Source: Actinomycetes bacterium
GTDB lineage: Bacteria > Actinomycetota > Thermoleophilia > Gaiellales > Gaiellaceae
DNA length: 37,181 nucleotides
NCBI GenBank assembly: GCA_023251945.1
Contig: JAHEXT010000004.1
Location: 1-37,181, forward strand
Reading direction: 5' to 3'
The notes below the pieces were generated by a model. The model was not told the DNA's origin. It ran no database searches and saw only the letters and a program-made list of their open reading frames with translations. A program made the position numbers and the translations under genes. Shown in pieces: positions 10,722-33,834 of the stretch. Every line of letters begins with the position of its first letter. The stretch's first letter is position 1.

Positions 10722-10954
10722 TGGTCGCGATGGCGGGCGGGTTCGGGTGGTTCGGTGCGGGCCTGTTGGCCGGCGTCGTCGTCGGTGTGTTCGTGCTCGG
10801 GTTGTGCGCTGCCGCGGCGACGCCCGCTCCGCGTCCGGGGGTCGGCTGTCGGCGCGGTTCGACGTCGCGAGCGCGGGGACGGCACCGCGTGGGATCACGG
10901 CTGGAGAGTTCCGGCGCTGCAGCGGCACGGCATCGAGGCCGCGAAGATTCATGA
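10721..10954 (+). CDS. Small protein with N-terminal TM segment
   Basis: ATG overlaps upstream stop; GAGLLAGVVVGVFVLGLCAAAA. Confidence 0.4.
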   Translation: MVAMAGGFGWFGAGLLAGVVVGVFVLGLCAAAATPAPRPGVGCRRGSTSRARGRHRVGSRLESSGAAAARHRGREDS

Positions 10955-12480: not shown

Positions 12481-12528
12481 CACGCCCCGGAGACTCCTCG
12501 TCAATCACCGCGACGAGGAGGACCCGCG

Positions 12529-13257: not shown

Positions 13258-13547
13258 GACGATCTCCTCTCGCTCGGCGCACTCCGCTGCGGGCCCGCTC
13301 GGGCGCCAGGCGCGTCCCGGCACGGGTGCGAGACGCGGTGTTCGCCCGCTCCGGCGGCCGCTGCGAGGCGCGACACGTCTCACCGTGCAATGGCCGTGGC
13401 GAGGTGCTCCACCACGTCCGGCGCCGCTCCCAGGGCGGCCCCGACACGCCAGAGAACCTCCTACATCTGTGCTGCGCGCATCACCGCTGGGTGCACGACC
13501 ATCCCGCTGCCGCGGCGGACCTCGATCTCCTCGCGATGCGGGGGTGA
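13254..13547 (+). CDS. HNH endonuclease
   Basis: RDAVFARSGGRCEARHVSPCNGRGEVLHHVRRRSQGGPDTPENLLHLCCAHHRWVHDHP; GTG at 13254. Confidence 0.85.
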   Translation: MRRSPLARRTPLRARSGARRVPARVRDAVFARSGGRCEARHVSPCNGRGEVLHHVRRRSQGGPDTPENLLHLCCAHHRWVHDHPAAAADLDLLAMRG

Positions 13548-13549
13548 CG

Positions 13550-13573
13550 GCTCCCGCACTCTGTGCGGAGCCG
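13550..13573 (+). terminator. Hairpin, weak terminator candidate
   Basis: GGCTCCCGCAC-tct-GTGCGGAGCC with one bulged C; no U-tract. Confidence 0.4.
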
Positions 13574-15646: not shown

Positions 15647-15650
15647 AACC

Positions 15651-15676
15651 GGTGACGGGGCTGCGATGGTCGCCGC
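15651..15676 (+). repeat. Start-associated repeat, divergent copy
   Basis: GGTGAC-GGGGCTGCG-ATGGTCG-CCGC then GTG 15677. Confidence 0.4.
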
Positions 15677-18115: not shown

Positions 18116-18142
18116 GGGTGACTCGACCCGCAGGATTGGGCC
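18116..18142 (+). repeat. Start-associated repeat, copy A
   Basis: GGGTGAC-TCGACCCGC-AGGATTG-GGCC then GTG 18143. Confidence 0.8.
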
Positions 18143-18304
18143 GTGCACAAGCGTCGCTCCGAGTTCCGTTCGCTGGTCGTTGAGAGCGTCGGCGTCGCCC
18201 TGATCGTCGCCGCGGCCGCGATCTTGGCCGGCGCCGGCGTCGCCCTCGCATGCGCGGGCATCTGGCTTGTCGTCGTCGCGAACGTGACCGGCGAGGGGCC
18301 CTAG
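18143..18304 (+). CDS. Small membrane protein between TerL and portal
   Basis: VHKRRSEFRSLVVESVGVALIVAAAAILAGAGVALACAGIWLVVVANVTGEGP; 53 aa, absent from ORF track; stop abuts portal ATG. Confidence 0.7.
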   Translation: MHKRRSEFRSLVVESVGVALIVAAAAILAGAGVALACAGIWLVVVANVTGEGP

Positions 18305-19642
18305 ATGGGGTTTCTGGGCCGCGCCCTTCGCGCGTCACGCGGGCCGTCTATCCCTGTGAGCAGCTCCGCCGCGGCTGGACTGTTCGGCTCGACGGCCGTC
18401 ACCGACGCCGGCGCCGAAATCGCCGCGCAGCCCGAACGGGCGCTGCGCTTCTCCGCCGTCTACGCCTGCGTCCGGCTGATCTCGGAAGCGATCGGCGGCC
18501 TGCCCGTCGACCTCGTGCGGACGAAGGGCCGGTTCCGGGAGCAGCTCCCCGACCATCCAGTCGCGTCGCTCGTAGCAGACGTCCCGAACCCTGAGATGGA
18601 CGCCGCCGAGCTCTGGCGCCAAACCGTCGGCTGGAAGCTCCTGCGCGGCAACAGCTACATCCTCCCCGAGTTCGACGCTCGCGGCCGCTGGTCGGCGCTC
18701 TGGCCGGTGCCCCCGACTCGCGTCACCCCCGCGCGTCGCACCGACGGGCGCCTCGCGTACGTCGTGCGCCTCGCGCCCGGCGAGTACGCGGGCACCCTGG
18801 CCCGCGAAACCGACGTCGTGCTCGACCCGACCGAGCTGCTGCACTTCCGGGCGTTCGGCCTCGGCGTCATCGGCCTCTCCCCCATAGGCCAGGCCGCGGA
18901 GGCCGTTGGGCTCGGCCTCACCGCCGAGGAGTACGGGTCGCGTGCGTTCCAGCAGGGCTCGAAACCCGGCGGGATCATCAAGTCGCAGACCAAGCTCACC
19001 GACGAGCAGTGGCAGCGGCTCCGGACCAGATGGAAGGAGATGCACCAAGGGGTGCGCCGCTCCCACCTCGTCGGCATCCTCGAAGACGGCCTCGACTGGC
19101 AGGACACGGGGATGTCGAACGAAGACGCTCAGTTCCTCGAGCTGCGCCGCTTCCAAGTCGCGGACATCGCCCGCATCTTCGGGGTTCCGCCCCACATGAT
19201 CGGCGATGTCGAACGGTCAACGTCGTGGGGGACCGGCATCGAAGCGCAGGGCACCGGATTCGTGGTCTACACGCTCATGCCATGGATCACCCGCCTCGAG
19301 CGCGTCACCCGGATGCGGCTCCTCACCTCGCCGGCCGACCGGGGCGTCAAGATCCGCTGGAACGTCGACGGGCTGCTCCGAGGCGACTTCCGCGCCCGGA
19401 TGGCCGGCTACGCGCTCGGCCGCCAGTGGGGCATCTACTCGGCGAACGACGTCGCGGCGCTCGAAGACCTCGACCCGATCCCCGGCGGCGACACCCGCCT
19501 CGTCCCCCTCAACATGGGCCTCATCGACGAGAACGGTGAGCTCGCAACCACTCCCGCCGAAGTCGCAGCCCGCGCCGCGCTCCTCAACCGGCTCGGCGCC
19601 TTCACGCAGCCCGCATCCGCCCCGGAGGCACCGGAGCAGTGA
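18305..19642 (+). CDS. Portal protein, HK97 family
   Basis: RFSAVYACVRLISEAIGGLPVDLV, RFQVADIARIFGVPPHMIGDVERSTSWGTGIEAQGTGFVVYTLMPWITRLE. Confidence 0.95.
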   Translation: MGFLGRALRASRGPSIPVSSSAAAGLFGSTAVTDAGAEIAAQPERALRFSAVYACVRLISEAIGGLPVDLVRTKGRFREQLPDHPVASLVADVPNPEMDAAELWRQTVGWKLLRGNSYILPEFDARGRWSALWPVPPTRVTPARRTDGRLAYVVRLAPGEYAGTLARETDVVLDPTELLHFRAFGLGVIGLSPIGQAAEAVGLGLTAEEYGSRAFQQGSKPGGIIKSQTKLTDEQWQRLRTRWKEMHQGVRRSHLVGILEDGLDWQDTGMSNEDAQFLELRRFQVADIARIFGVPPHMIGDVERSTSWGTGIEAQGTGFVVYTLMPWITRLERVTRMRLLTSPADRGVKIRWNVDGLLRGDFRARMAGYALGRQWGIYSANDVAALEDLDPIPGGDTRLVPLNMGLIDENGELATTPAEVAARAALLNRLGAFTQPASAPEAPEQ

Positions 19643-19902
19643 CCGGCCCGGCGCCTCGACGGTTCGCGCTGCACCGCGACCTCGACGTGTCAGGCGTCAG
19701 CGGCACCGGCATCGTCGCCTACGGCGTCGAGTTCCCCGACGGGACCTGCGCGACCCGCTGGAACGCCGCCCGGGCACAGACCTGCTGCTGGACGTCGATC
19801 GACGACGTCGTCCACGTCCACGGCCACGGCGGCGCAACAAGGCTCGTCTGGATCGACCCGCCCCCCGGTCGGGTGACAGCCCCTCCATCATCGGGCCCGT
19901 GA
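19639..19902 (+). CDS. Conserved small phage protein
   Basis: FALHRDLDVSGVSGTGIVAYGVEFPDGTCATRWN...HGHGGATRLVWID. Confidence 0.7.
   Translation: MTGPAPRRFALHRDLDVSGVSGTGIVAYGVEFPDGTCATRWNAARAQTCCWTSIDDVVHVHGHGGATRLVWIDPPPGRVTAPPSSGP
19871..19898 (+). repeat. Start-associated repeat, copy C
   Basis: GGGTGAC-AGCCCCTCC-ATCATCG-GGCCC then GTG 19899. Confidence 0.85.
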
Positions 19903-20648
19903 CCGAACGGGAACGCATCCGGCGGAACTTCCAGCTCTCCGGCGTCGAGATCCGCGCCGCCGACGACGGAAAGATCACCTTCCGCGGCTACGCGGCCGTG
20001 TTCAACTCCGCAAGCGTCGACTTCGGCGGCTGGCGTGAGGTGATCGAACCCGGCGCGTTCACAGCCACCCTCGCGGCCGGCCCCCGGGTCCTGCTGCTCC
20101 ACAACCACGACGCGAATCTCGTTCTCGCCTCCACCGACAACGGGACCCTGAAGCTCTCCCAGGACGAGAAGGGTCTCCTCGTCGAAGCGACCTTCGCAGA
20201 CGTGTCCTACTCAAGTGACGTCGCGACGCTGTACCGGGAGGGGTACCTCGCGCACATGTCGTTCGCGTTCTGGATCGTGTCGCGGCGTTGGGATGACCGA
20301 GGCGGCGAGATGTTCCGCGTCATCGAGGAAGTCGACATGGACGGCGGAGACGTCTCGACCGTCGCGTACCCCGCCTACCTCGGCACCTCAGGTGAGATCC
20401 GAGGCGAGATCCTCGACGCGCTGCGCAGGGTCGCGGACCTCGACCCGGCAGCAGCGAAGGCCGCGTTCGCCGAGCTGCGAGACGGCCACCCCCTCGACGA
20501 CGCCACCCAGGCGCTTCTCCGCCGGGCTGCTGCGGCGCTCGACGCCCTCGTCGGAGACGACGGCCCGCCGTCGGGTGACATCCCCTCCATCATCGACACA
20601 GCACGAGATCGCACCCTTCGACTGCACGAAAGGCGGATGGGCCGATGA
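19899..20648 (+). CDS. HK97-family prohead protease
   Basis: ITFRGYAAVFNSASVDFGGWREVIEPGAFTATL, LLHNHD, YLAHMSFAFWI; GTG at 19899. Confidence 0.92.
   Translation: MTERERIRRNFQLSGVEIRAADDGKITFRGYAAVFNSASVDFGGWREVIEPGAFTATLAAGPRVLLLHNHDANLVLASTDNGTLKLSQDEKGLLVEATFADVSYSSDVATLYREGYLAHMSFAFWIVSRRWDDRGGEMFRVIEEVDMDGGDVSTVAYPAYLGTSGEIRGEILDALRRVADLDPAAAKAAFAELRDGHPLDDATQALLRRAAAALDALVGDDGPPSGDIPSIIDTARDRTLRLHERRMGR
20573..20597 (+). repeat. Start-associated repeat, copy D (inside protease 3' end)
   Basis: GGGTGACATCCCCTCCATCATCGAC; 26-bp identity (from C20572) to copy F; 48 bp before capsid ATG. Confidence 0.8.
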
Positions 20649-21847
20649 GCAAGCTGCGCGAGATGCGCGAGAAGCGAGCGAACCTCTGGGAGCAGATGAA
20701 GGCGCTGCGCGACGCTGCCGAGGGGCGCGACTTCACCGCGGAGGAGAACCAGTCCTGGGACCAGCTCGACGGCGAGATCGAGGCCCTCACCCGCCAGATC
20801 GACCGGGACGAGAAGCTCTCCGAGCGTGAGCGGCAGGTCGGCGACGTCGACCCGATCCCCGACCCGGACACCCGCAAGGACGACGGCGACGCGCAGAAGC
20901 GTGCCGCGGACATCTTCGCCCGGTACCTGCGCGCCGGTGAGCGCGGCATCAGCGCCGAGGAGTTCCGGGCGCTCGAGTCGACCCGACCCGAGCTCGGCGG
21001 CTACCTCGTCGCCCCCCAGACGTTCGTGACGCAGCTCCTCCAGGCCGTCGACGCCGAGGTCTTCGTGCGCCAGTGGGCGACGAAGTACCAGGTCGCGACG
21101 AACGAGAGCCTCGGCGTCCCGAGCCTCGACGCCGACCCCGACGACGGCGACTGGACCGCGGAGCTCGCCACAGGCAACGAAGACAGCGCGATGGCGTTCG
21201 GCAAGCGCGAGCTCGTCCCGCACCCCCTCGCGAAGCGCGTCAAGCTCTCCAACAAGCTGCTCCGCCAGGCCGCGATCGACCCCGAAGCCCTCGTCCGGGC
21301 CCGACTCGCGCAGAAGTTCGCGGTCACGCAGGAGAAGGGGTTCTTCACCGGCAGCGGCGTGAACCAGCCCCTCGGCTTCTTCACCGCCTCCGCGCACGGC
21401 ATCTCGACCGGTCGAGACGTCGTGTGCGGCACGACCACGGCGATCACCGCCGACGGCCTCATCGACCTCAAGTACGGGCTCAAGAGCCAGTACTGGCCGC
21501 GCGCGAAGTGGGTGTTCCACCGCGACGCAGTCAAGCAGATCCGCAAGCTGAAGGACCAGCAGGACCAGTACCTCTGGCAGCCGGGCCTGCAGGCAGGCCA
21601 GCCCGACTCGATCCTCGACACGCCGTTCGTCGTGAGCGAGTTCGCCCCGAACACGTTCACGACCGGGCAGTACACGGCGATCATCGGCGACTTCAGCTTC
21701 TACTGGATCGCCGACGCGCTCGACATGACCGTGCAGCGCCTCGTCGAGCTGTACGCCGAGAAGAACCAGACCGGGTTCATCGGCCGGCTCGAGACCGACG
21801 GCATGCCGGTCCTCGAAGAGGCGTTCATCCGCGGGAAGCTCGCCTAG
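20645..21847 (+). CDS. Major capsid protein, HK97 fold
   Basis: N-terminal coiled coil, GGYLVAPQTFVTQLLQAVDAEVFVRQWATKYQV, ...YTAIIGDFSFYWIADALDMTVQRL. Confidence 0.95.
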   Translation: MSKLREMREKRANLWEQMKALRDAAEGRDFTAEENQSWDQLDGEIEALTRQIDRDEKLSERERQVGDVDPIPDPDTRKDDGDAQKRAADIFARYLRAGERGISAEEFRALESTRPELGGYLVAPQTFVTQLLQAVDAEVFVRQWATKYQVATNESLGVPSLDADPDDGDWTAELATGNEDSAMAFGKRELVPHPLAKRVKLSNKLLRQAAIDPEALVRARLAQKFAVTQEKGFFTGSGVNQPLGFFTASAHGISTGRDVVCGTTTAITADGLIDLKYGLKSQYWPRAKWVFHRDAVKQIRKLKDQQDQYLWQPGLQAGQPDSILDTPFVVSEFAPNTFTTGQYTAIIGDFSFYWIADALDMTVQRLVELYAEKNQTGFIGRLETDGMPVLEEAFIRGKLA

Positions 21848-21860
21848 CAAAGGAGACCCG

Positions 21861-22247
21861 ATGCTCGGGGTACGCAAGACAGCCACCATCGCGCAGAGCC
21901 TCACGCCCGCGGCGCGTACAGCGTCCGCGAACGGTACGGGTGTCGACCTCGCCGGGTACGAGCGTGCGCTGGTGGTGGTCGAGTCCGGCACGATCACGGA
22001 CGGCACCCACACGATCGAGGTCCAGGAATCCGCGGACAACTCGACGTTCACCGCGGTCGCGGACACGGACCTCGAAGGCACCGAACCCGCGATCGCCGCA
22101 GCGAACGACGACACGGTCTGGACGATCGGGTACGTCGGCACCAAGCGGTACGTCCGCGTCGCGGTGACCGTCGCGGGAGCGACGACCGGCGGCGTCTACG
22201 GCGCGCAGGTCGTGCGGCTCGGACCGTCACGGAAGCAGCCGCACTGA
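21861..22247 (+). CDS. Hypothetical structural/decoration-like protein
   Basis: SD AGGAGA; beta-rich sequence after capsid. Confidence 0.6.
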   Translation: MLGVRKTATIAQSLTPAARTASANGTGVDLAGYERALVVVESGTITDGTHTIEVQESADNSTFTAVADTDLEGTEPAIAAANDDTVWTIGYVGTKRYVRVAVTVAGATTGGVYGAQVVRLGPSRKQPH

Positions 22248-22525
22248 TGCGGGTCCGGATGGTGACCCTCGCGGCCGGGCCCGGCGGGGTGCGTCGCCCC
22301 GGCGACGTCATCGACGTCTCGTCGCACGAGGCTCGCGACCTGCTCGAAGGCGGCTACGCCGTCCCGGTCGGTCGCGGCGAAGCCGAGACCGCGGACGCTC
22401 CCGCCGCGGACGAGACCACCGCGCGCAAGACCGCCCGGGGCCGAGGGAAGACCAAGGCAGCGGACGCTCCCGCCGCGGACGAGACTGCAGGCGACGACGC
22501 CACGGACGGCGACGACGCCACGTAG
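22247..22525 (+). CDS. Small head-associated protein with acidic repeat tail
   Basis: RRPGDVIDVSSHEARDLLEGGYAVPV; tail with duplicated ADAPAADET (GCGGACGCTCCCGCCGCGGACGAGAC at 22391 and 22460). Confidence 0.65.
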   Translation: MRVRMVTLAAGPGGVRRPGDVIDVSSHEARDLLEGGYAVPVGRGEAETADAPAADETTARKTARGRGKTKAADAPAADETAGDDATDGDDAT

Positions 22526-22546
22526 CGGGCACCGACCCGCATGTGA

Positions 22547-22574
22547 GGACCGGCCCCCTACGGGGGGTCGGTCC
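22547..22574 (+). terminator. Hairpin after head genes, terminator candidate
   Basis: GGACCGGCCCCC-tacg-GGGGGTCGGTCC, one mismatch; no U-tract. Confidence 0.6.
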
Positions 22575-22583
22575 GCGTCCGGC

Positions 22584-22611
22584 GGGTGACACCGACCGCA
22601 TCATCGGCCCG
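22584..22611 (+). repeat. Start-associated repeat, copy E
   Basis: GGGTGAC-ACCGACCGC-ATCATCG-GCCCG then ATG 22612 (mini-ORF). Confidence 0.8.
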
Positions 22612-22628
22612 ATGGAAACGAGACCTCC

Positions 22629-23225
22629 GTGCCTCTGACCGACACCGGCCGCAACGGCCTCCTCACCTCCGGCGCCGCGGCGATCACGCACCTCGCTCTC
22701 CTCGATGCGACCTTGGCCGAGATCTCGGGCGGCAGCCCCGCGTACGCCCGCCAGGCTGTCTCGTGGACGGCAGCGTCGGGCGGTGTGCGCGACAACCAGG
22801 CGACAGTCCCGTTCGACGTCCCCGCCACGACGATCGCCGCGGCCGGGTTCCGCGACGCGCTCTCCGGCGGGAACGACCTCGGCTGGGCTCCGCTCGGCGC
22901 CCACACCGCACTCGTCGCTCTCGCGGCCGCCGGGACCGACACCCTCACCTCCTACGCGCACGGCCTCGCGAACGACCAGCGCGTCTTCGCCTTCGACCTG
23001 TTCGCCGGAGGCCTACCCGCAGGGCTGGCCGAGACGGCCCTCTACTGGATCGTCGCCGCGACCACCGACACGTTCCAGCTCGCGACATCGCAGGGTGGCG
23101 CCGCCGTGAACGTCACCGGTGACGGCGAGCTGGTCGTGCAGCGCTGCTCGCCGCAGACGTTCGCCGCGCAGGGCCTCTGCGAAATCCAGGCAGGCCAGCT
23201 CGATCTCGACCTGCGGATGGTCTGA
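22629..23225 (+). CDS. Hypothetical phage structural protein
   Basis: VPLTDTGRNGLLTSGAAAITHLALLDA..., GTG start. Confidence 0.6.
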   Translation: MPLTDTGRNGLLTSGAAAITHLALLDATLAEISGGSPAYARQAVSWTAASGGVRDNQATVPFDVPATTIAAAGFRDALSGGNDLGWAPLGAHTALVALAAAGTDTLTSYAHGLANDQRVFAFDLFAGGLPAGLAETALYWIVAATTDTFQLATSQGGAAVNVTGDGELVVQRCSPQTFAAQGLCEIQAGQLDLDLRMV

Positions 23226-23226
23226 C

Positions 23227-23670
23227 ATGGCGCTCACCGTGACTGCTGTTGCGGGAGCGGCGATCCGCGGTGCACTCACAGCGCTCGACGCCCACATCCG
23301 AGACCCGGCATGGTTCTGCGGGACGAGCGCGGACCTCGCGATCCCGCCGGCTGAGGCGCTGGAGCATCGCGCCGCGGCCGGCGAGAAGGTCCTCGTCGTG
23401 CGTGACGGCGGCACGCGGGTCGGCCTCGCTGTCGTGCGACCGTCAGACGGCCGACTTCGCTGGGTGCTGTGCCGCCCCGCCTACTACGCCGACGTCCTCA
23501 CCGCGCTCGGCGAGCACATCGCCGCGGCATGGGGCGTCAACGGCTGGGCGTGGAACGAGGGCGACAACGAACGCACCCGGGCGCTCCGGGCGCATCCGCG
23601 GCTCAAGATCACCGACGAGAAGAGCACGGAGGACGGCACTCTCCTGATCCGCGCCGAATGGGCCGGCTGA
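23227..23670 (+). CDS. Hypothetical protein, possibly GNAT-like
   Basis: VLVVRDGGTRVGLAVVRPSDGRLRWVLCRPAYYADVLTAL...NEGDNERTRALRAHPRL; fold assignment speculative. Confidence 0.45.
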   Translation: MALTVTAVAGAAIRGALTALDAHIRDPAWFCGTSADLAIPPAEALEHRAAAGEKVLVVRDGGTRVGLAVVRPSDGRLRWVLCRPAYYADVLTALGEHIAAAWGVNGWAWNEGDNERTRALRAHPRLKITDEKSTEDGTLLIRAEWAG

Positions 23671-23671
23671 C

Positions 23672-24427
23672 ATGCCGACCCTCGATCTCCAAGTCGCGGC
23701 GAGCGCCGACGACGCATTCCAGGACTCGGGCGGTTCGGTCAACACGACAGCGGCCGAGCATCTCCTACTGGCGGGCAGCACATGGCTCGGGCTCCGCTTC
23801 ACCGCCGTGACGATCCCGCCGGGTTCGATCGTCTCCGCGGCGACACTGCAGATCTACGCTCCGAACACCAAGTACGACTCGGTCAACGCCGACATCTACG
23901 GCCAGGCTGCCGACAACCCCGCAGCGTTCACGGCCGCGACGAACGGCATCTCGTCGAGGCCACGCACCACCAGCAAGGCCACATGGACGGGTGATCTCGC
24001 GGGGCCCGGCTGGCGAGCTGCTCCAGACCTCGCAGCGGTCGTCCAGGAGATCATCGACCGGCCTGGCTGGGCGTCCGGCAACGCCCTCGCGCTCATCTGC
24101 GACGACATCAACTGCGGCCTGTCGGTGCGCACCTGGGACTACGCAGGCCACGCGCACGGAGCGCAGCTCGACATCACCTACACGACACCGGTGCCGGTCT
24201 CCGCACGTCTCGCCGCGGCCGCGACCGGCAGCGCAACCCAACGGCCGACACTGCGCGCCTCAGCCATGCTCGCCGCCGCCGCGGTCGCCACCGCCGCTCT
24301 GCAGCCCGTCACCCCCCTCACCGTCGGCGAAGCAGCCGGAGGTGCCCGCAGCGTCGAGCCGGGGACACGCACTGCAGGCGGAGCGGAAGCCGCAGGAGGA
24401 GCGCGCGGGATGGGCGCCGGCGGGTGA
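23672..24427 (+). CDS. DNRLRE-like beta domain protein with low-complexity C-terminus
   Basis: WLGLRFTAVTIPPGSIVSAATLQIYAP...; Ala/Gly-rich tail. Confidence 0.5.
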   Translation: MPTLDLQVAASADDAFQDSGGSVNTTAAEHLLLAGSTWLGLRFTAVTIPPGSIVSAATLQIYAPNTKYDSVNADIYGQAADNPAAFTAATNGISSRPRTTSKATWTGDLAGPGWRAAPDLAAVVQEIIDRPGWASGNALALICDDINCGLSVRTWDYAGHAHGAQLDITYTTPVPVSARLAAAATGSATQRPTLRASAMLAAAAVATAALQPVTPLTVGEAAGGARSVEPGTRTAGGAEAAGGARGMGAGG

Positions 24428-24449
24428 CTCGACCCGCAGGATTGGCGCC
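24422..24449 (+). repeat. Start-associated repeat, copy B
   Basis: GGGTGAC-TCGACCCGC-AGGATTG-GCGCC then GTG 24450; first 24 nt identical to copy A. Confidence 0.85.
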
Positions 24450-25307
24450 GTGGACCGAATCCTGCGCCGCACCTCCGCGACGATCACCCTCGAGATCTAC
24501 GACGCGTCCGGTGCGCTCGTCGACGCGACGGGACTCCCTACCGTCACGATCGAGGACTCAGCGGGCGTCGCGATCGCCACGGACCGTGTCACAACCCGGG
24601 CGAGCGTCGGCGTCTACGACGCTGCCCTCTCGCCCGCCGAGACTGCCGTCCTCGACTCCTACTCGGCGGCATGGACCGCGACGGTAGGCGGCGCCGAGCA
24701 GACCTTCGCGACGTGGTACGAGACCGTCGGCGGGTTCCTCTTCTCGATCGCCGAGCTTCGCGGCGAGGACGAAGCCCTCGCCGACACCGGCGCGTACCCT
24801 GCAGCGCAGATCCGCCGGGCCCGCAACTCCGCCGAGGACCGGCTCGAGCAGCTCTGCGGCCTGGCGTTCGTCCCACGAGGCCGACGCGTCAGCCTCGACG
24901 GCAACGACGAAGCCGGCATCCTGCTACCCGACCTGTCCGTCACCGCCGTCGTCGCCGCATCCGTGGACGGCACAGCGCTCACCGGCGACGAGCTCGCAGC
25001 CCTCGCCGTGTACGGATACGGGCTCGTGGTCCGTGGCGACGGTGGCGTGTGGACCGCGGGGCAGCGAAACGTCGAGGTCTTCTACGAGCACGGCATGGCC
25101 GTCGCACCCGAACCGGTCCGCCGCGCCGCACGCAAGCTCGCCGCCTCCGAGATCCTCCCGTCCGCGGTGCCGGACCGGGCTGTCGCGGAATCGACCGATG
25201 TGGGGACGATCCGCTGGTCGATCGCCGGCCGCGACGGCCCGACAGGTATCCCCGAAGTCGACGCCGTGATCGACCAGTTCGCGTCCCGCGACCTCATCGG
25301 AGGCTGA
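24450..25307 (+). CDS. Head-tail connector protein
   Basis: IRRARNSAEDRLEQLCGLAFVPRGRRVSLDG..., RNVEVFYEHGMAVAPEPVRRAARKLAASEILPSAVPDRAVAEST. Confidence 0.75.
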   Translation: MDRILRRTSATITLEIYDASGALVDATGLPTVTIEDSAGVAIATDRVTTRASVGVYDAALSPAETAVLDSYSAAWTATVGGAEQTFATWYETVGGFLFSIAELRGEDEALADTGAYPAAQIRRARNSAEDRLEQLCGLAFVPRGRRVSLDGNDEAGILLPDLSVTAVVAASVDGTALTGDELAALAVYGYGLVVRGDGGVWTAGQRNVEVFYEHGMAVAPEPVRRAARKLAASEILPSAVPDRAVAESTDVGTIRWSIAGRDGPTGIPEVDAVIDQFASRDLIGG

Positions 25308-25310
25308 GCC

Positions 25311-25754
25311 GTGCCGTCGACGGTCTGGCCCGACGCGCAAGATGCCCTCAAGGCCGCGCTCGACGCCCGCCCAGGCCTCACCGGTGTGCCAGTCACGGTC
25401 GGCTACCCGGCCGGAGGACCGAACGTTGAACACATCTGGATAGCCGGTCAGGTCACCGACTGGACCCGCGAGTGGGAAACCACCGCGGTCGCGAACGCCC
25501 CGATCCGCGAGGAGTTCACCCTCGAGCTGTACGTGGTGGTCTCACGGCGGGTCCGTACGTTCGAGGAGGTCAGGGTCCGGCTCCTCGCCATCCTCGACGA
25601 GATCGAAGCCGCCGTCACGGCGGACTTCACGCTCGGCGGCGCTGTCGCTGTCGCGACCCTCACAGGCGGTGAGATTCAAGAAGGCATCGACGACGAGCGG
25701 CGCAGCGGCGGCGCCGAGCTGCGGGTCCGCTGCGAAGCCGACCTTGCCGGGTGA
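25311..25754 (+). CDS. Tail completion/terminator-like protein
   Basis: ALKAALDARPGLTGVPVTVGYP..., REEFTLELYVVVSRRVRTFEEVRVRLLAILDEIE; position before tail tube. Confidence 0.55.
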   Translation: MPSTVWPDAQDALKAALDARPGLTGVPVTVGYPAGGPNVEHIWIAGQVTDWTREWETTAVANAPIREEFTLELYVVVSRRVRTFEEVRVRLLAILDEIEAAVTADFTLGGAVAVATLTGGEIQEGIDDERRSGGAELRVRCEADLAG

Positions 25755-25775
25755 CATCCCCTCCATCATCGACGC
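25749..25775 (+). repeat. Start-associated repeat, copy F
   Basis: GGGTGAC-ATCCCCTCC-ATCATCG-ACGC then ATG 25776; contains upstream stop TGA. Confidence 0.85.
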
Positions 25776-26000
25776 ATGGCCCCGACCTACCACCTGCCCG
25801 AACCGGCCCGGGTCGAGCAGCACACGACGACCGGCGTCCTCAGCGTCGAATGGCCGGCGGGCGAGGTGACCCCGGCCGACGACGTCGAGCAGGTCCTGCT
25901 CGAAGGCCTCGCCGCCGCCGGGCTCGCCGAACGCGTCGACAGCCGAGGCAAGACACGACGGGGCACCCCGTCAGAGCCCGACCCAGCAGAGGAGCAGTAG
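25776..26000 (+). CDS. Small hypothetical protein
   Basis: MAPTYHLPEPARVEQHTTTGVLSVEWPAGEVTPADDVEQVLLEGLAAAGLAE; 74 aa. Confidence 0.65.
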   Translation: MAPTYHLPEPARVEQHTTTGVLSVEWPAGEVTPADDVEQVLLEGLAAAGLAERVDSRGKTRRGTPSEPDPAEEQ

Positions 26001-26975
26001 ATGCCGCTGCAGAAGAAGCTCGCCCGCGTCGGCCTCGCGAAGCAGTCCGCGAAAGGCACCGCCGCGACCGTCCCTGCGTTCGCGTTCGGGATCCGCGACG
26101 GCGGCGTGTTCTCCGCCGAGCTCCCCCAAGAACGCGAGGAGATCACACAGTCCGCGTCGCTCATCGCGCCGGCCGCGAACCGTGGTCTCGTCGTCCCCGG
26201 CGCCGAGTTCAGCACCCGCGCCTACGCCGGGTCGATCGGCCTCCTGCTCTACGCCGCGCTCGGCGGCATCGCGACGACGGGCACCGGCCCGTACACGCAC
26301 ACGATCACCCCGGCCACCGCGCTGCCATGGCTGTCGGTGTTCGGCCAGCTCGACGGTAACCTCATCAAGGCATTCGACTGCCTCGTCGACGAGCTGGAGA
26401 TCTCCTGGGACGGCGTCGAGCCGCTGGAGGTCTCCGCGTCGATGATCGGCCGCAGCGTCGAATGGCCGGGCTCGTTCGGGACCGTCACCAACGACGAGGA
26501 GCTCGCCGCCTACTTCCGGCCTGTCGGCGGCACCTTCAAGGTCGACGTCGACTCCGCGACGCCCGTGACAGCATCGATCAAGGCCGGGTCGCTGAAGATC
26601 GCGAACAACGTCGAGGCGATCGACCTGTCGCACCTGGCGACACCCGGCGAGGTGTGGAACGGCGCGCAGGACATAGACGTCGGCCTCACCCTCGTGCCCG
26701 ACGTCCTCGACGACTGGCGCACGATCCTGACCGGGACCGCGGCGGGCACCAGCGTCTCCGCGGTCCCGATCTACGGCAGTTTCGAGGTCCAGTTCAACCT
26801 CGACGCCAACACGTTCCTGAAGCTCGCCGCGTCGCGAGTCGCGTTCGCCGTCGAGTTCCCCGAAGCGGACAGCGGCGGCGGCTCGGTCGAGCTGCCCCTC
26901 GAAGGGCTCGTCGTGCGGCCCGCGTCGGGCGCGCCGTTCACAGCGACGGTCAAGAACACGATCGTCAGCTACTAG
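26001..26975 (+). CDS. Major tail tube protein
   Basis: LGGIATTGTGPYTHTITPATALPWLSVFGQLDGNLIKAFDCLVDELEISWDGVEPLEVSASMIG. Confidence 0.85.
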   Translation: MPLQKKLARVGLAKQSAKGTAATVPAFAFGIRDGGVFSAELPQEREEITQSASLIAPAANRGLVVPGAEFSTRAYAGSIGLLLYAALGGIATTGTGPYTHTITPATALPWLSVFGQLDGNLIKAFDCLVDELEISWDGVEPLEVSASMIGRSVEWPGSFGTVTNDEELAAYFRPVGGTFKVDVDSATPVTASIKAGSLKIANNVEAIDLSHLATPGEVWNGAQDIDVGLTLVPDVLDDWRTILTGTAAGTSVSAVPIYGSFEVQFNLDANTFLKLAASRVAFAVEFPEADSGGGSVELPLEGLVVRPASGAPFTATVKNTIVSY

Positions 26976-26980
26976 CCCCG

Positions 26981-27331
26981 ATGGGGCGCAGAGAGATCCG
27001 TGCGGCCCGTCGGGCAGCACGACGGACAGAGGAGGACCGGGTGCGGATCACAGCGACTATCACGCACGACGACGGACGAGCAGAGACCGTGCAGGTCCGC
27101 GTCGCGGACCTGGCCGACTTTGAGGACGCGTTCGACCGTCCGGCCACGATCCTCGAGCACGAACCGAGACTGTCGTGGCTGCTGTGGGTCGTCTGGCGCG
27201 CGCTGCGCCGCGCGGACAAGACGCTCTCGGCCTACGAGCAGTGGCGTGCCACCGTCGCGGATCTCGACGTCGTCGGGGTCGGCGACGACGCGACCGAAGC
27301 GGAGGAGCGCCCTACATCGCCCGTCTCGTAG
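26981..27331 (+). CDS. Tail assembly chaperone (G-like)
   Basis: ITATITHDDGRAETVQVRVADLADFEDAFDRPATI; located between tail tube and tape measure. Confidence 0.7.
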   Translation: MGRREIRAARRAARRTEEDRVRITATITHDDGRAETVQVRVADLADFEDAFDRPATILEHEPRLSWLLWVVWRALRRADKTLSAYEQWRATVADLDVVGVGDDATEAEERPTSPVS

Positions 27332-27486
27332 CCGCGATCGCGTTCGAGACGGGAATCAGCCCCGACGCTCTCCTCGCACACGACACCGTGTTCTGGGAGA
27401 TCGTGAGGCTCTGGGAGCAGCGCCACGAAGCGCGGCGAGACGCCGACCGGCGTCAGCGTCTCCGAGACCGGCTTGGCCGACGATGA
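27300..27486 (+). CDS. Tail assembly chaperone frameshift extension (T-like), start approximate
   Basis: -1 frame: GGAPYIARLVAAIAFETGISPDALLAHDTVFWEIVRLWEQRHEARRDADRRQRLRDRLGRR; no local ATG/GTG to start it. Confidence 0.6.
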
Positions 27487-27905
27487 GCAGCACCGACCCG
27501 AAGATCGTGATCGAAGGCCTCGACGAGTTGCGACGGGCCCTCAAGTACGCGGAACCCGACCTCCGCAAAGCTCTCGTCGCGACGCTACGTAAGGCCGCCC
27601 GAATCGTGGTCCCCAGAGCGAAGGCGCAGGCCCCGGCGCGCACGGGACGGCTGCGACGGTCGATCCGTGTCTACGCCCGCCAGACCGGAGCCGCGATCGG
27701 CTCACCCCGCCCGTACGCGCCGGTCATCGAGTTCGCGTTCCGGCGCGGCGGCAAGCGCGACTACTCGGGCCTCACCGCACGTTGGGGGAAACCGCCCCGC
27801 TACCTCGTCCCAGCCGTCGAAGAGTCAATCGGCGAGGTCCGCGAGGCCGTCGAGCGTGACCTCGCGGGTCTACTGGACAGGATCATCCCGAAAGGTCCCG
27901 CCTGA
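27483..27905 (+). CDS. HK97-gp10-like minor structural protein
   Basis: KIVIEGLDELRRALKYAEPDLRKALVATLRKAARIVVPRAKAQAPARTGRLRRSIRV; ATG overlaps previous stop. Confidence 0.8.
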   Translation: MSSTDPKIVIEGLDELRRALKYAEPDLRKALVATLRKAARIVVPRAKAQAPARTGRLRRSIRVYARQTGAAIGSPRPYAPVIEFAFRRGGKRDYSGLTARWGKPPRYLVPAVEESIGEVREAVERDLAGLLDRIIPKGPA

Positions 27906-29965
27906 TGGCCAAAGCCGGCATCCAGATCAACATCATCGGGTCGCTCAACGCGAAAGCGCTGCGCTCCGCGCAGGCCGAGCTCGGCCAACTCGCGCAGAAA
28001 GCCGACCGGTCAAGCCGCACGTTCGGGGCCCGGCTCGGCTCCGCCGGACGAGCCGCAGCGAAGTTCGGGAAAGTCGCGGCGATCGGGATCGGCGGCGCGG
28101 CCGTCGCGATCGGCGCGGGCCTCACAGACGCGCTCGGTGAGGCCCGCGAAGCCGCACGGATCGGCCGCCTCACCGACCAGGTCATCAAGACGACCGGAGG
28201 CGCCGCGCACGTCACAGCCGGCCACGTCGCGTCGCTCGCCGAGAACCTCTCGAACCTCACCGGCATCGATGATGAGACCGTCCAGGCCGGCGAGAACCTC
28301 CTCCTGACCTTCACCAACGTCCGCAACGAGGTCGGCGAGGGCAACAACGTCTTCGACCGGGCGACCTCAGCGGCGCTCGACATGGCGACAGCGCTCGGCC
28401 GCGACGCGAACCAGTCGGCCATGATGCTCGGCAAGGCCCTCAACGACCCGGTCCGAGGCATGAACGCGCTGCGCCGCTCAGGCGTCTCGTTCACGGAGGA
28501 ACAGCGCGACCATGTCGAAGCGATGGTCGAAGCCGGAGACGTGCTCGGCGGGCAGAAGATCATCCTCGACGAGGTCGGCAAGGAGTTCGGCGGCGCGGCT
28601 GCCGCGGCAGCGGACCCGACGCAGCGCCTTGGGGTCGTCGTCGACAACCTCAAGGAACGGATCGGGACAGCGCTGCTCCCGGTCGTCAGCGACGCCGCGA
28701 CCTGGCTCGGAGCGCACCTGCCCGCAGCGCTCGACACGGCAGGCCAGTTCTTCGACGATCACCTCAAGGTCCCGCTGCGGAAGGTCGGTGCGGTGATATC
28801 CGCGTTCGTGCGTGCGGTCGGGGAGAAGGGGATGCTCGGAGCGCTGCGGGATCTGTCAGGCCCGGGCAAAGCTCTCGCGGCGGTCATCGCGACGATTGGT
28901 GTCGCGATCTGGGCGGCGACGGCGCCGATCTCGTTGATCGTCGCTGGTCTCGCGGCCGTGGCCGTAGCGGTCTATGCGGCGTATCGACGGTTTCCCGCGT
29001 TCCGCGCCGCGGTGCAAGCCGTCGTCGACTTCGTCCGGGAGCACTGGCCGCAGGTCCGCGCGACCGTCGCTGGAGTGTTGCGGAAGGTCGGTGCGGTGAT
29101 CTCCGCGTTCGTGGCGACCGCTCAGGCGGTGTGGCGCACCTTCGGCAACAACATCCTCAGCTTCGTCCGGCGGGTGTGGCCGAACATCAAGCAGGTCATC
29201 TCCGGCGTGCTCACCGTGATTCGAGGGATCATCAAGACGGTCACGTCGCTGATCCGCGGCGACTGGTCCGGCGTGTGGGAAGGCATCAAGAAGATCGTGA
29301 CCGGCGCATGGAACGCGATCCAGGGCGCGGTGAAGGCCGCTGTCGAGGCTCTGCGCCTCGCTCTCGGCGCCGCGCTCGAAGGGCTCGGAGAGCTGTTCAA
29401 GGCCGCGTGGGACGGCATCACGAACACCGCCGGGAACGCGGTCGACGCCGTCTTCGACTTCTTCAAGAAGCTGCCGGGCCGCATCGGCGACGTAGTCGGA
29501 GGTATCGGCTCCGCGGCCCTCGACGTCGGCAAGACGATCGTCGCGAAGCTCGCCGAAGGCCTCTCGGCCGTGGTCGGCTTCGCGGGCGACATCGCCGGTG
29601 CGGTCGCTAACGCGATCAAGTCGGCGATCAACGCGATCATCGATCTGCTCAACGACGGGATCCCGAACAGCCTCGGTTGGGGGCCCGCGTCCATCGACCT
29701 GCCCGACAACCCGATTCCGCGTCTGCACACCGGTGGAATCGTGCCGGGCCGCCGAGGCGAGGAGTTCCTGGCGCTCCTCGAAGCCGGCGAGCTCGTGATC
29801 TCCGCGAGCGACGCCCGCGGCGTGCGTGACCGGGGCCACGCCGCGCCGATCGGCCGGGCCCGGCCCGACCGTCAGGCGTCCTACACGTTCCACGTCTACG
29901 AGGCGCAGAGCCCGGCCGCGGCTGCCGACGCGATCGCCTGGAAGCTCAAGGTGTCGGGGTTCTGA
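27905..29965 (+). CDS. Tape measure protein (686 aa)
   Basis: Long Ala/Gly-rich helical protein; EREERDHVEAM-type minor tail motifs; C-term LHTGGIVPGRRGEEFLALLEAGELVIS. Confidence 0.9.
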   Translation: MAKAGIQINIIGSLNAKALRSAQAELGQLAQKADRSSRTFGARLGSAGRAAAKFGKVAAIGIGGAAVAIGAGLTDALGEAREAARIGRLTDQVIKTTGGAAHVTAGHVASLAENLSNLTGIDDETVQAGENLLLTFTNVRNEVGEGNNVFDRATSAALDMATALGRDANQSAMMLGKALNDPVRGMNALRRSGVSFTEEQRDHVEAMVEAGDVLGGQKIILDEVGKEFGGAAAAAADPTQRLGVVVDNLKERIGTALLPVVSDAATWLGAHLPAALDTAGQFFDDHLKVPLRKVGAVISAFVRAVGEKGMLGALRDLSGPGKALAAVIATIGVAIWAATAPISLIVAGLAAVAVAVYAAYRRFPAFRAAVQAVVDFVREHWPQVRATVAGVLRKVGAVISAFVATAQAVWRTFGNNILSFVRRVWPNIKQVISGVLTVIRGIIKTVTSLIRGDWSGVWEGIKKIVTGAWNAIQGAVKAAVEALRLALGAALEGLGELFKAAWDGITNTAGNAVDAVFDFFKKLPGRIGDVVGGIGSAALDVGKTIVAKLAEGLSAVVGFAGDIAGAVANAIKSAINAIIDLLNDGIPNSLGWGPASIDLPDNPIPRLHTGGIVPGRRGEEFLALLEAGELVISASDARGVRDRGHAAPIGRARPDRQASYTFHVYEAQSPAAAADAIAWKLKVSGF
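28076..28120 (-). repeat. 45-bp exact inverted repeat, copy in tape measure gene
   Basis: Reverse complement identical to 15394..15438; encodes AAIGIGGAAVAIGAG on + strand. Confidence 0.95.
28776..28810 (+). repeat. Tape-measure internal 35-bp direct repeat (second copy 29079..29113)
   Basis: TGCGGAAGGTCGGTGCGGTGAT[A/C]TCCGCGTTCGTG; encodes LRKVGAVISAFV. Confidence 0.85.
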
Positions 29966-29967
29966 CG

Positions 29968-30825
29968 GTGAGCGCGCCGGCCGACTGGCAGTGGGACATC
30001 GCGGGCGTCACGCTCGGGGACGGAACGGTCTACGGGATCGTCGCTTCGGCGGGGCTGCACGGCGCGGAGGAGATCCGCAGCAGCGACGATCCTCGGCCGC
30101 AGGCCCACGGGGTGTTCCTCGGCCGCGACTACCTCGGCGCCCGGCTCGTCAGCCTCGAAGTCGCGATCACCGCAGACGACGCGGCAGCCGCTCGGGCGGC
30201 GGTCGAGGAACTCGCGGCGGCGTGGCACATGACCGGCCCCGCCGAAGGTGAGACCGAGCCGCTCCGGTTCCGGCTCCCCGGCCGGCCCGCGCAGCGTCTC
30301 ATGGGCAGGCCTCGCCGAGCGGCGTTCGACACGTCACGGCTCCAGGCCGGGCGGGTCCGCGCCGAACTCGAGTACTTCGCTGCGGACCCGTACATCTACG
30401 CGGATGAGGCGGAGTCCGTGGCGCTGCCGCTGACCGCCGAGTCCGTCGGCCGCACCTACCCGCGGACGTACCCGCTCACCTACGGAGCGGCTCTGTCGGG
30501 CGTCGCGATCGTCACGAACTCGGGCACCGTCCCGACGCACCCCACGATCCGGATCGTCGGCCCGGTCGACAACCCGCAGGTCGAGAACGTCACGGCAGGC
30601 GAGTACGTCCGAATCGCTCTCTCGCTCACAGCGGACGACTACCTCGACGTCGACATGGCGTCGGGGACCGTGATGCTGAACGGCACCGCTTCGCGCCGCT
30701 CCGCGCTCACGTCCGAGTCGACGTGGTGGGCGCTCGCGCCCGGCGACAACGAGGTCCGGGCCCGGGCCGACACCGTCCAGACAGGTGCGGTCGCGGCGGT
30801 GTCGTGGCGTTCCGCTTGGATCTGA
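29968..30825 (+). CDS. Distal tail protein-like
   Basis: Follows tape measure; domain-like RLVSLEVAITADDAAAARAAVEELAAAW...LRFRLPGRPAQRLMGRPRRA. Confidence 0.75.
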   Translation: MSAPADWQWDIAGVTLGDGTVYGIVASAGLHGAEEIRSSDDPRPQAHGVFLGRDYLGARLVSLEVAITADDAAAARAAVEELAAAWHMTGPAEGETEPLRFRLPGRPAQRLMGRPRRAAFDTSRLQAGRVRAELEYFAADPYIYADEAESVALPLTAESVGRTYPRTYPLTYGAALSGVAIVTNSGTVPTHPTIRIVGPVDNPQVENVTAGEYVRIALSLTADDYLDVDMASGTVMLNGTASRRSALTSESTWWALAPGDNEVRARADTVQTGAVAAVSWRSAWI

Positions 30826-30841
30826 CAGGAAGGACACGATC

Positions 30842-31771
30842 ATGACGGTGCGTACACCCCGATGGCTGCAAGGCGGCTCGCACGCAGCGGAAGACGACCG
30901 GCTCCTCACCGCCGCGCTGGCCACCAGCGCAGGGGTGAACAGCGCCGCCGCGCTCAAGGTCACCCAGCAGACCACACCGGCGATGAGCGTGCAGGTCGCG
31001 GCCGGGTCCGCGTTCGTGGCCGGGACCGAATCGGCCCTGCAGGGCCTCTACTTCGTCTACAACGACGCTGCGGTGAACGTCACGATCGCGGCGGCCGACG
31101 CGACGAACCCTCGCCGCGACCTCATCGTGCTCCGAGTGAAGGACGCCGCGTACTCCGGCGCGGCGAACAGCGCGACGGTCGAGTCCGTCACCGGCACCCC
31201 CGCCGCGTCACCGACCCTCCCGGCCGTCCCGGCGAACTGCCATGTCCTCGCCGAGATCGCGGTAGCGGCGGCCGCGACGTCGATCATCGACGCGAACATC
31301 ACCGACCGGCGCGAGTACTCGTCGCTCTACCAAGCCCCACGAGGCGAGCTGGCCTACGGCGCCCTCGGGACCGGCCAGACGTTCCCGTACTCCGGGTCGG
31401 AGGACGACATCACGAACCTCTCGGCGACACTCACCCTCGACGCAGACCGCAAGATCCTCATCAGCGCCGAAGTCCCCTACCGGTTCGGGACCGGCGCAAC
31501 CCAGACACTCTGGGTACGGGTCCGGGAGGGCGCGACCCTGCTCCGCGTGGCCACCCGGTATCAGACGTTCATCTCCAACGAACGGGAGCGGCTCGTCGTG
31601 TCGGTACGACTCACCCCATCGGCCGGGTCACACACCTACAAGGTGACCGGCGAAGCGGGCATCGGTGGCGGCCCGACGACCTGGCAGATCGAGAACGACG
31701 AGACGGCCACCATGATCGTCGAGGACATCGGCGGGCTCACCAAGCCTGCCGGGTCGTCGGGGCAGCCGTAG
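30842..31771 (+). CDS. Tail tip/fiber protein
   Basis: GLYFVYNDAAVNVTIAAADATNPRRDLIVLRVKD...; SD GGAAGGA. Confidence 0.65.
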   Translation: MTVRTPRWLQGGSHAAEDDRLLTAALATSAGVNSAAALKVTQQTTPAMSVQVAAGSAFVAGTESALQGLYFVYNDAAVNVTIAAADATNPRRDLIVLRVKDAAYSGAANSATVESVTGTPAASPTLPAVPANCHVLAEIAVAAAATSIIDANITDRREYSSLYQAPRGELAYGALGTGQTFPYSGSEDDITNLSATLTLDADRKILISAEVPYRFGTGATQTLWVRVREGATLLRVATRYQTFISNERERLVVSVRLTPSAGSHTYKVTGEAGIGGGPTTWQIENDETATMIVEDIGGLTKPAGSSGQP

Positions 31772-33553
31772 ATGCCGCAGTACCGGTGGCTGATCGCCGA
31801 CCTCGGCTCCGGCGACATCCTCGACGAGCTGCCGCTCTCCGAGGTCACCTGGTCGCGGGTCTTGTCACGCGCGGGTTCCTTCGACGCGCAGATGCCGCTG
31901 CGGCTCACACACCGCGTGCCGTCTCCGGTCCCGTACGGCCTCGAGGTGCGCCGCGACACCCCCCGCGTCCACTACCGGTGCGGGGAGCTGTCAGGCACGA
32001 CCGCCGTCGACGCGTCGGGTAACAGCTACGACGGCACGTACACCGGGACCGTGACGCTGGGAGAAGACGCGCTGCTCGACGGCGAGAACGACCGGGCCGC
32101 GCGTCTCGGAACCTCGACACCCGCCGGGCACATCACGGCGCCCGCGGCAGCGTTCGCCCCCACGAACAGCGACTACACGATCGAAGCGTGGGTGACGATC
32201 GACAGCCTCGCCTCCTGGGTGTCGATCTACCGCGGCCACGAGACCACCGGCGCGGGGAAGCAGATCGCGCTGGCCGTCGAGACCGACGGCCGGCTCCGGC
32301 TCTCCACAGACCTCACCACCTGGGCCAGCTCGCCCGCAGGCGCGATCACCGCAGGCGCCGCCCATCACGTCGTCGCGACGTTCGAGGCGTCGACCACCAC
32401 GAGCCGCCTCTACGTCGACGCCATCTTGGTAGCGGAGTCCACCGCGGTCGGCCCGTACACGGGCGGCGCGATGACTCTCGGCGCTAGCTTCGGCGGCGCC
32501 TGGTTCGTCGCCTGGCTCCCGAACCTTCCCGGCGTGATCGACGAAGCCGCGCTCTACCATCACGCGCTCCTCGCAGACCGGATCGCCCGCCACTACCAGG
32601 CCGGGATCGGCGACCTCGCATACGAGCAGGTCGACGTCCCGGTCGCGCGCCGCAGCCTGATCGACCCTGCCCGCCGCGTCGTCTACGTCGAACGAGACGG
32701 CCAGATCACCGCCGGGTACATCCTCTGGCAGGCGTCGGGATCGAGCCGCGACGGCTCCCTGCGGATCGCGGGGGAAGGGATCTGGTCGTACTTCGCTCGG
32801 CGGCTCATCCGGACCCGCAAGACCTACACGGCAACGGATCAGCTCGCGATCGCCCGCGGCCTTGTCAACTACGCCCAGAGCGAGGCGGGAGGCGATATCG
32901 GCCTCGTCGTTGGCGCCGAGACATGCGGCGTGACCCGCTCCCGCACCTACCCGGCCGAGGAACGCAAGCCCGTCGCGGAAGCGGTCGAGCAGCTCGCCGG
33001 TGTCGACGGCGGCTTCGACTTCGCCGTCGAGTCCGCCTGGACAGCAGGCGAGATCGAGAACCGGCTCGTGCTCTCCTACCCGCGGCGAGGCCGGCGCACC
33101 GACCTCGTCTTCACGCTCGGCGACAACATCGTCCAGCTCACCCAAGACGTCGATGGCGGCCGCGCCGCGAACCGTGTCGATACGCTCGGCGACGGCGAAG
33201 GAGACGCGGTTCCCATCGCGACGGCAGCAGACGCGAACCTCCTCGACGCCTACCCCCTGCTGGAACGCGCGACGGCGTGGTCGGGTGTCAAGACCACCGC
33301 GACACTCGACCAGCATGCCCGCGCCGAACTCGCCGCGCTCGGGAGCCCACCAGACCTCCTCACCGTCTCCGTCCGCTCGACCGACCTTGTGCCGCTCGGC
33401 TCATGGATCGAAGGCGACGACGTGCAGGTCCGCGCCCGAGACGGCTGGATCGACGTCGACGGCTGGCAGCGCATCATCGCCTACGCGGTCGCGGTCGGCG
33501 CCGACGGACACGAGACCATCGACGTGACGTTCGCGGGAGCGGAGACGCTATGA
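31772..33553 (+). CDS. Gp37-like minor tail protein with inserted LamG-like domain
   Basis: N-term ADLGSGDILDELPLSEVTWSRVLSRAGSFDAQMPL; LamG-like DTPRVHYRCGELSGTTAVDASGNSYDGTY...IDEAALYHHALLADRIARHYQAG; then DPARRVVYVERDGQITAGYILWQ. Confidence 0.75.
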   Translation: MPQYRWLIADLGSGDILDELPLSEVTWSRVLSRAGSFDAQMPLRLTHRVPSPVPYGLEVRRDTPRVHYRCGELSGTTAVDASGNSYDGTYTGTVTLGEDALLDGENDRAARLGTSTPAGHITAPAAAFAPTNSDYTIEAWVTIDSLASWVSIYRGHETTGAGKQIALAVETDGRLRLSTDLTTWASSPAGAITAGAAHHVVATFEASTTTSRLYVDAILVAESTAVGPYTGGAMTLGASFGGAWFVAWLPNLPGVIDEAALYHHALLADRIARHYQAGIGDLAYEQVDVPVARRSLIDPARRVVYVERDGQITAGYILWQASGSSRDGSLRIAGEGIWSYFARRLIRTRKTYTATDQLAIARGLVNYAQSEAGGDIGLVVGAETCGVTRSRTYPAEERKPVAEAVEQLAGVDGGFDFAVESAWTAGEIENRLVLSYPRRGRRTDLVFTLGDNIVQLTQDVDGGRAANRVDTLGDGEGDAVPIATAADANLLDAYPLLERATAWSGVKTTATLDQHARAELAALGSPPDLLTVSVRSTDLVPLGSWIEGDDVQVRARDGWIDVDGWQRIIAYAVAVGADGHETIDVTFAGAETL

Positions 33554-33804
33554 GCGGCCCGGTGCTGCCCGACCACGGCATCGACGGTCTCGTGCGTCAC
33601 CTCCGCGACCTGGAGCGCCGCATCGCGACGCTGGAGCGGTCCCGTGGCCGCCTCACAGCCGCGACGGCCCGGGAAGGCACCATCACGATCCTCGACGCCG
33701 CGGGGACCCGCAGAGCGGTCTTCGGACGCCAAGACGACGGGAAGTACGGGCTGCGGGTCTGGACGTCCGCAGGGGTGCTCTCCGTCGACGACACGACCAG
33801 CTAG
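33550..33804 (+). CDS. Small tail-tip protein
   Basis: VRHLRDLERRIATLERSRGRLTAATAREGTITILDAAGTRRAVFGRQDDGKYGLRVW. Confidence 0.6.
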   Translation: MSGPVLPDHGIDGLVRHLRDLERRIATLERSRGRLTAATAREGTITILDAAGTRRAVFGRQDDGKYGLRVWTSAGVLSVDDTTS

Positions 33805-33807
33805 GCC

Positions 33808-33834
33808 GGGTGACCATCACGGCACCATCGGGGC
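33808..33834 (+). repeat. Start-associated repeat, copy G
   Basis: GGGTGAC-CATCACGGC-ACCATCG-GGGC then GTG 33835. Confidence 0.75.

Follow-up and report, generated by a model that had tools for sequence, protein, structure and literature searches.

The stretch of DNA analyzed here in full, hereafter the window (37,181 nt; GenBank contig JAHEXT010000004.1), is contig 67 of a high-GC metagenome-assembled genome (MAG) and carries a temperate siphovirus. Repressor-like helix-turn-helix (HTH) genes are followed by genes for a YqaJ-type exonuclease and RecT, a WhiB gene, and an endolysin-like gene, and then by the late genes, which include those for the terminases, portal, protease, major capsid, connectors, and tail, and the integrase gene. 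The presence of a WhiB gene suggests that the host of this phage is actinobacterial. Dispersed through the late region is a repeated element that an initial annotation had described as GGGTGAC-N9-ATCATCG ending 4 to 5 nt before a start codon, with three proposed functions: a signal for initiation independent of a Shine-Dalgarno (SD) sequence, a leaderless promoter element, or a regulator site.

Seven copies (A to G) are present, all on the + strand and where they had been reported, and they are far more numerous than expected by chance. Copy A (GGGTGAC-N8-CAGGAT, 18116..18136) lies upstream of a small gene between those for the terminase and portal, whose predicted leaderless start is the GTG at 18143. 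Predicted leaderless starts likewise follow copy C (GGGTGAC-N8-CATCAT, 19871..19891; GTG at 19899 of the protease gene), copy B (GGGTGAC-N8-CAGGAT, 24422..24442; GTG at 24450 of the head-tail adaptor gene), copy F (GGGTGAC-N8-CATCAT, 25749..25769; ATG at 25776 of a small gene upstream of the major tail gene), and copy G (GGGTGAC-N8-CACCAT, 33808..33828; GTG at 33835 of an 81-amino-acid gene). In these five copies, the start codon assigned by a codon-preference gene call that was blind to the motif stands 27 to 28 nt past the first G, and the TGA within copies B and F doubles as the stop codon of the upstream gene. In copy E (GGGTGAC-N8-CATCAT, 22584..22604), the ATG at +28 (22612) is out of frame and begins an 8-codon open reading frame (ORF) overlapping the start of the head gene proper at +45 (22629). 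Copy D (GGGTGAC-N8-CATCAT, 20573..20593) does not adjoin a start; it lies inside the protease gene, at its 3' end, and is the predicted leadered promoter of the major capsid gene, whose ATG (20645, weak SD AAAGGCGG) is 72 nt downstream. No SD precedes the starts that adjoin the element, as had been noted for most of them, although this is not peculiar to them, since several other late genes that overlap their upstream gene also lack one.

Alignment of the window copies gave C-GGGTGAC-N8-CANNAT, with C as base -1 in 6 of the 7. The fixed internal spacing and the common orientation were confirmed, but the sequence first described proved to be only the local version of a core, GTGAC-N8-NANNNT, or more fully [G/C/A]GTGAC-N8-NANNNT, with the start codon, where present, 6 to 7 nt past the hexamer. 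By this core pattern, three more degenerate copies on the + strand join the seven. Those at 12475..12495 (GGGTGAC-N8-GAGACT) and 13542..13562 (GGGTGAC-N8-CACTCT) are leadered and precede the endolysin-like gene (SD GAGGAGG) and the gene at 13599 (SD GAGGAG), respectively. The third (CGGTGAC-N8-GATGGT, 15650..15670), previously suspected as a weak copy at 15651, is genuine and has exactly the same spacing as the others; its predicted start is the GTG at 15677 of a zinc-finger gene before the terminase genes, and CTGAAAC stands upstream of it. One further match, at 6247 in the early region, probably arose by chance.

The identities reported between copies were reproduced: D and F share 26 bases, and A and B share 24 (26 counting the preceding GC). 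Copies C and D are identical at 23 of 24 bases yet are read in different frames, and therefore the constraint is on the nucleic acid (DNA or RNA) and not on a peptide; a peptide-level cause (MTxPPSS N termini or a common C terminus) was rejected on the same ground. GGTGAC-N8-NANNNT occurs 11 times in the window, whereas 1,000 codon/intergene shuffles averaged 0.36 matches (maximum, 3); the strict pattern occurs 7 times, compared with a maximum of 1. With a position weight matrix (PWM), the copies scored 26 to 35; the highest score in 200 second-order Markov copies was 23, and no other site in the window exceeded 12. A host-wide motif was rejected, as the rest of the incomplete 1.28-Mb MAG contained no exact match to the consensus and 128 other genomes of the order gave isolated, chance-like matches.

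Several searches came back empty or uninformative. The exact long pattern GGGTGACNNNNCCTCCATCATCG had no match in IMG/VR, and a strict PWM scan of relatives retrieved by major capsid protein or portal found no copies, those relatives being AT-rich or from other groups; whole-window k-mer families were swamped by codon bias, and an expectation-maximization motif search on upstream regions returned no usable motif except SD-like ones. The apparent lack of conservation was overturned by a degenerate pattern that included the start codon and by retrieval with terminase homologs. Searched in 2.9 million viral contigs, the degenerate pattern yielded 27 contigs, 6 of which also encode homologous late genes, and several bear more than one copy. 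The window and these six relatives together contain 33 late-strand matches to GGTGAC-N8-NANNNT and none on the opposite strand, and every other spacer from 2 to 19 gave 0 to 6 matches. An independent set of 80 contigs was fetched by terminase homologs alone, and the 76 not previously used were tested: a spacer of 8 gave 74 late-strand matches, other spacers gave 5 to 23, and the opposite strand gave 4. Box variants were also found in this set (CGTGAC, 48 versus about 11; AGTGAC, 17 versus about 4; TGTGAC, none), and one subgroup of relatives uses CGTGAC or AGTGAC. Furthermore, when hexamers upstream of NANNNT-N5-7-RTG (RTG being ATG or GTG) were ranked without prior knowledge of the box, GGTGAC, or a hexamer overlapping it, came first at this spacing in several independent loci.

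The relatives carry the element at homologous late-gene junctions. It is present at the junction of the large terminase (TerL) and portal genes in about 19 relatives, as in copy A, and upstream of zinc-finger gene homologs in about ten, as at 15650; other shared positions are the portal-protease junction, the region before the adaptor gene, and the junction of the tail terminator and major tail genes, as in copy F. In at least 8 relatives, an element precedes a capsid-size ORF by 72 to 87 nt, as copy D does. We also observed that the first element of the late region, which lies in front of or close to the zinc-finger gene preceding the terminases, frequently has an extra GAAAC-like stretch upstream (window 15650; PF 5313 [L176]; L187 55; L191 6406; L192 63; L204 47), which perhaps marks the first late promoter.

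Conserved positions outside the box were evaluated in 84 nonredundant late-strand sites conditioned on GGGTGAC only. Of these sites, 75% had A at -11, 79% had T at -7, and 76% had C at -28, with a background of about 16% for A or T at these positions. The contigs for this column analysis were picked for containing elements, a mild bias controlled by the opposite strand, and near-identical contigs were removed; the 37 opposite-strand GGGTGAC sites of the same contigs showed none of the A-11/T-7/C-28 signal. A at -11 and T at -7 characterize the -10 element of sigma70-family promoters. A -35 hexamer at a spacing of 16 to 18 bp was not seen, as there was no conservation from -39 to -29 and the box lies 8 bp from the -10 element, indicative of a variant and not a canonical promoter. 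Conservation was also absent from +1 to +6.

An RTG stands 6 or 7 nt past the hexamer in 27 of 62 elements and 5 nt past it in 4 (31 in all), with 0 to 2 at other offsets. Of the 76 copies collected, RTG stands at +1 in 40; the other 36 lack it and are mostly followed by an SD-led ORF 42 to 118 nt downstream, which argues against a translation signal. The existence of leadered copies also accounts for the outlying copy D, which would be a promoter of the major capsid gene that is conserved and leadered. In mycobacteria, leaderless translation requires ATG or GTG at +1 and needs nothing more, C is preferred at -1, and short leaderless ORFs coupled to the following gene are common (PMC4633059). 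These traits (RTG at +1, C at -1, and short ORFs) all recur in the elements. ORFs of 7 to 15 codons begin at the predicted +1 of copy E and of several relatives. Those of 7 to 12 codons at copy E (22612-22638) and in L164, L172-L173, and L150 (PB 5569, PA 33258, and PD 483) overlap or contain the SD of the next gene and look like coupled leaderless leader peptides.

Whereas the element itself is observed, along with its spacing, strandedness, location, -10 signature, start-codon register, and conservation, we infer where transcription would start, which polymerase would be engaged, and which factor might take part. We propose, with a probability of roughly 0.87, that the repeats are late promoters that switch on structural genes, both in this virus and in many uncultured relatives with high-GC bacterial hosts. 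The -10 element (NANNNT, with A-11 and T-7) would be read by the host RNA polymerase, and the [G/C/A]GTGAC box, which spans roughly -26 to -21 (GTGAC itself, -25 to -21) and lies 8 bases before the -10 element, would substitute for the absent -35 element. A phage-encoded factor would contact this box and bring the polymerase to the late genes during the lytic cycle, and transcription would begin 6 to 7 nt past the -10 hexamer. Where ATG or GTG falls exactly at the start, the mRNA would be leaderless and translated without an SD, and we consider it likely that RTG copies do start their mRNA at the start codon; where it does not, a leader with an SD would be made, as at the major capsid gene. 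A textbook leaderless sigmaA promoter in the same phage counts in favor of late promoters: TTGACA-N18-TAGGTT-N6-GTG (1553..1590, + strand) stands at the cro-like gene 1588 and serves as a comparison case. This sigmaA-like promoter overlaps the ACTACGCA operator candidates.

Since there is no conserved -35 element and the box lies 8 bp from the -10 element, host sigmaA would probably not be enough by itself. Of the window genes that were scanned with Pfam and PHROGs, none was recognized as encoding a polymerase or sigma factor. Apart from structural, integrase, and HNH genes, the two longest motif-bearing relatives have in common with the window the zinc-finger gene that precedes the terminases and the protein encoded at 10951..11481 (+ strand), a candidate regulator that matches phrog_323 ("transcriptional regulator, D5-like"; E value, 2e-8). 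This protein is predicted to combine a three-helix HTH at its N terminus with a zinc ribbon (CPxC...CxxC) and a long helix at its C terminus. Because phrog_323 alone is too generic, with matches in 13 of 14 controls, homologs were found with a dedicated five-sequence hidden Markov model; they occurred in all 6 element-positive contigs that measured 35 kb or more and in 0 of 6 terminase-related contigs of 28 kb or more that lack the element, a comparison confounded by kinship and host differences. Two contigs considered as cases of a regulator without the element (G143 and G144) were rejected, as both carry the CGTGAC variant. A tblastn search for the protein in named phages gave no match, and PDB sequence and fold searches were uninformative. 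We tentatively suggest that the protein encoded at 10951-11481 may be the factor reading the box. The phage WhiB-family gene (11474-12067) lies directly after that of the candidate regulator, and its product is an alternative transcription factor for this role. We advance with more hesitation the broader idea that a phage HTH/zinc-ribbon protein reads GTGAC inside the normal spacer and redirects host RNA polymerase to leaderless late mRNAs, which would make the elements a new class of promoter architecture common to a wide range of uncultivated phages that infect high-GC hosts.

The copies could instead act in the mRNA, as an SD-independent start element like the start-associated sequences (SAS) of other phages, bound by the ribosome or a protein. 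Most window copies do lie at a fixed 27 to 28 nt from a start codon that lacks an SD. However, a purely translational role does not fit the 36 of 76 copies that have no start codon at that distance and mostly an SD-led start farther on, nor the conservation of A-11 and T-7, the positions of a -10 element; moreover, no consistent hairpin was seen by eye, and GGTGA, about 20 nt from the start, is too distant for an SD. We regard this explanation as very improbable. Of the three functions first proposed, the leaderless promoter is strongly supported and the purely translational signal is not. Operator or stoperator-like sites of a phage repressor or silencer, oriented with transcription, are slightly less probable still. 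The asymmetry of the copies, their single orientation, and their location in small intergenic regions of a temperate phage with integrase and HTH genes would suit such sites, but the copies are confined to late genes, keep a fixed register with start codons, and bear the -10 signature; unlike the stoperators of Cluster A phages, which also occur at the early operator and are bound by the repressor, they have no PWM match in the early control region.

Two further promoter types were weighed against late promoters read by host polymerase with a phage factor. Promoters of a host alternative sigma factor acting without any phage factor would account for the sigma70-family -10 signature, but an 8-bp spacer is incompatible with sigma region 4 contacting a -35 element, and the element is neither repeated exactly elsewhere in the incomplete MAG nor found beyond isolated, chance-like matches in the 128 other genomes of the order, so we consider them very unlikely. 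Promoters for a single-subunit phage RNA polymerase of the T7/SP6 type would be strongly conserved, on one strand, and dispersed through the late operon, as observed here, and GGTGAC is also found in the SP6 promoter. Yet this is the least probable of the alternatives, as no RNA polymerase family match was obtained among the window genes scanned, conservation ends before +1 with no conserved initial G run, and A-11 and T-7 form a sigma70-family pattern.

Some points weigh against late promoters of the kind that we propose. All transcription starts in these phages are predicted. Ordinary sigma70 promoters have a 16- to 18-bp spacer, and the 8-bp spacer is so far from this that a dedicated factor has to be postulated; the candidate for that factor rests on a family match and co-occurrence, and the fold search gave nothing. 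In addition, the relatives are often metagenome fragments, some nearly identical, so that raw counts overstate independence, and the element is absent from the named relatives phiC31, which shows no enrichment of GTGAC-N8-NANNNT, Chymera, Zirinka, and Mcklovin.

Other features of the window were noted. An 87-amino-acid gene before the protease gene (19639-19902) belongs to phrog_7499, a family that also occurs in many Streptomyces phages and, at 53% identity, in Haloarcula virus PH1, and its homology stops at the beginning of copy C. Two short internal direct duplications, of 24 identical bases each, are located at 22391-22483 and 2778-3005.

Repeated start-associated motifs have been described in actinobacteriophages for more than a decade without a known function, and here comparative sequence alone gives one motif family a register that favors transcription over translation. 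A single model covers leaderless and leadered copies and names a candidate factor. GTGAC-N8-NANNNT would be a simple signature to find late promoters and correct start codons in many uncultured phages, and the elements may offer an orthogonal, inducible, leaderless promoter system for actinobacteria.

In T4 middle promoters, a MotA activator box replaces the -35 element a short, fixed distance before the -10 element. The elements resemble these promoters in architecture alone, with an activator box in place of -35 plus a host -10 element, but differ in box sequence and spacing (the MotA box is centered near -30, at 11 to 13 bp), and no MotA/AsiA-like gene was recognized here. The Streptomyces temperate phage phiC31 has conserved phage-specific lytic promoters that require phage functions, a similarity that does not extend to the sequence of the element. 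We found no paper on the GTGAC-N8-NANNNT element in the open-access literature. Start-associated motifs of unknown function occur in Cluster K, O, EC, EF, EG, and EI phages, and no motif printed in those reports matches it (PMC3203893, PMC4351075, PMC7302621). The nearest in arrangement is that of Cluster EC Microbacterium phages, which encode a sigma factor: an 18-bp asymmetric motif of unknown function in 12 copies, also in one orientation, in small intergenic gaps, and 21 to 30 bp upstream of starts, but with the sequence TAGaCTCTaGGTgTaAgC, upstream of the ribosome-binding site, and mostly among nonstructural genes (PMC7302621). SAS and ESAS of Clusters K (PMC3203893) and EF (PMC7302621) are likewise repeated, asymmetric, start-associated, and in one orientation. 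The Cluster K SAS, GGGATAGGAGCCC, occupies the SD position 3 to 7 bp from the start among nonstructural genes (PMC3203893), whereas the element studied here comes without an SD and with a promoter signature; as initially stated, it differs from both this SAS and the L5 stoperators, the likeness being merely conceptual. Mycobacterial leaderless promoters (Shell et al. 2015, PMC4633059) belong to the host and have no conserved GTGAC box at -25, yet, as proposed for the phage elements, their -10 element puts +1 on the R of ATG or GTG, with C preferred at -1, and their short leaderless ORFs overlap the next gene.

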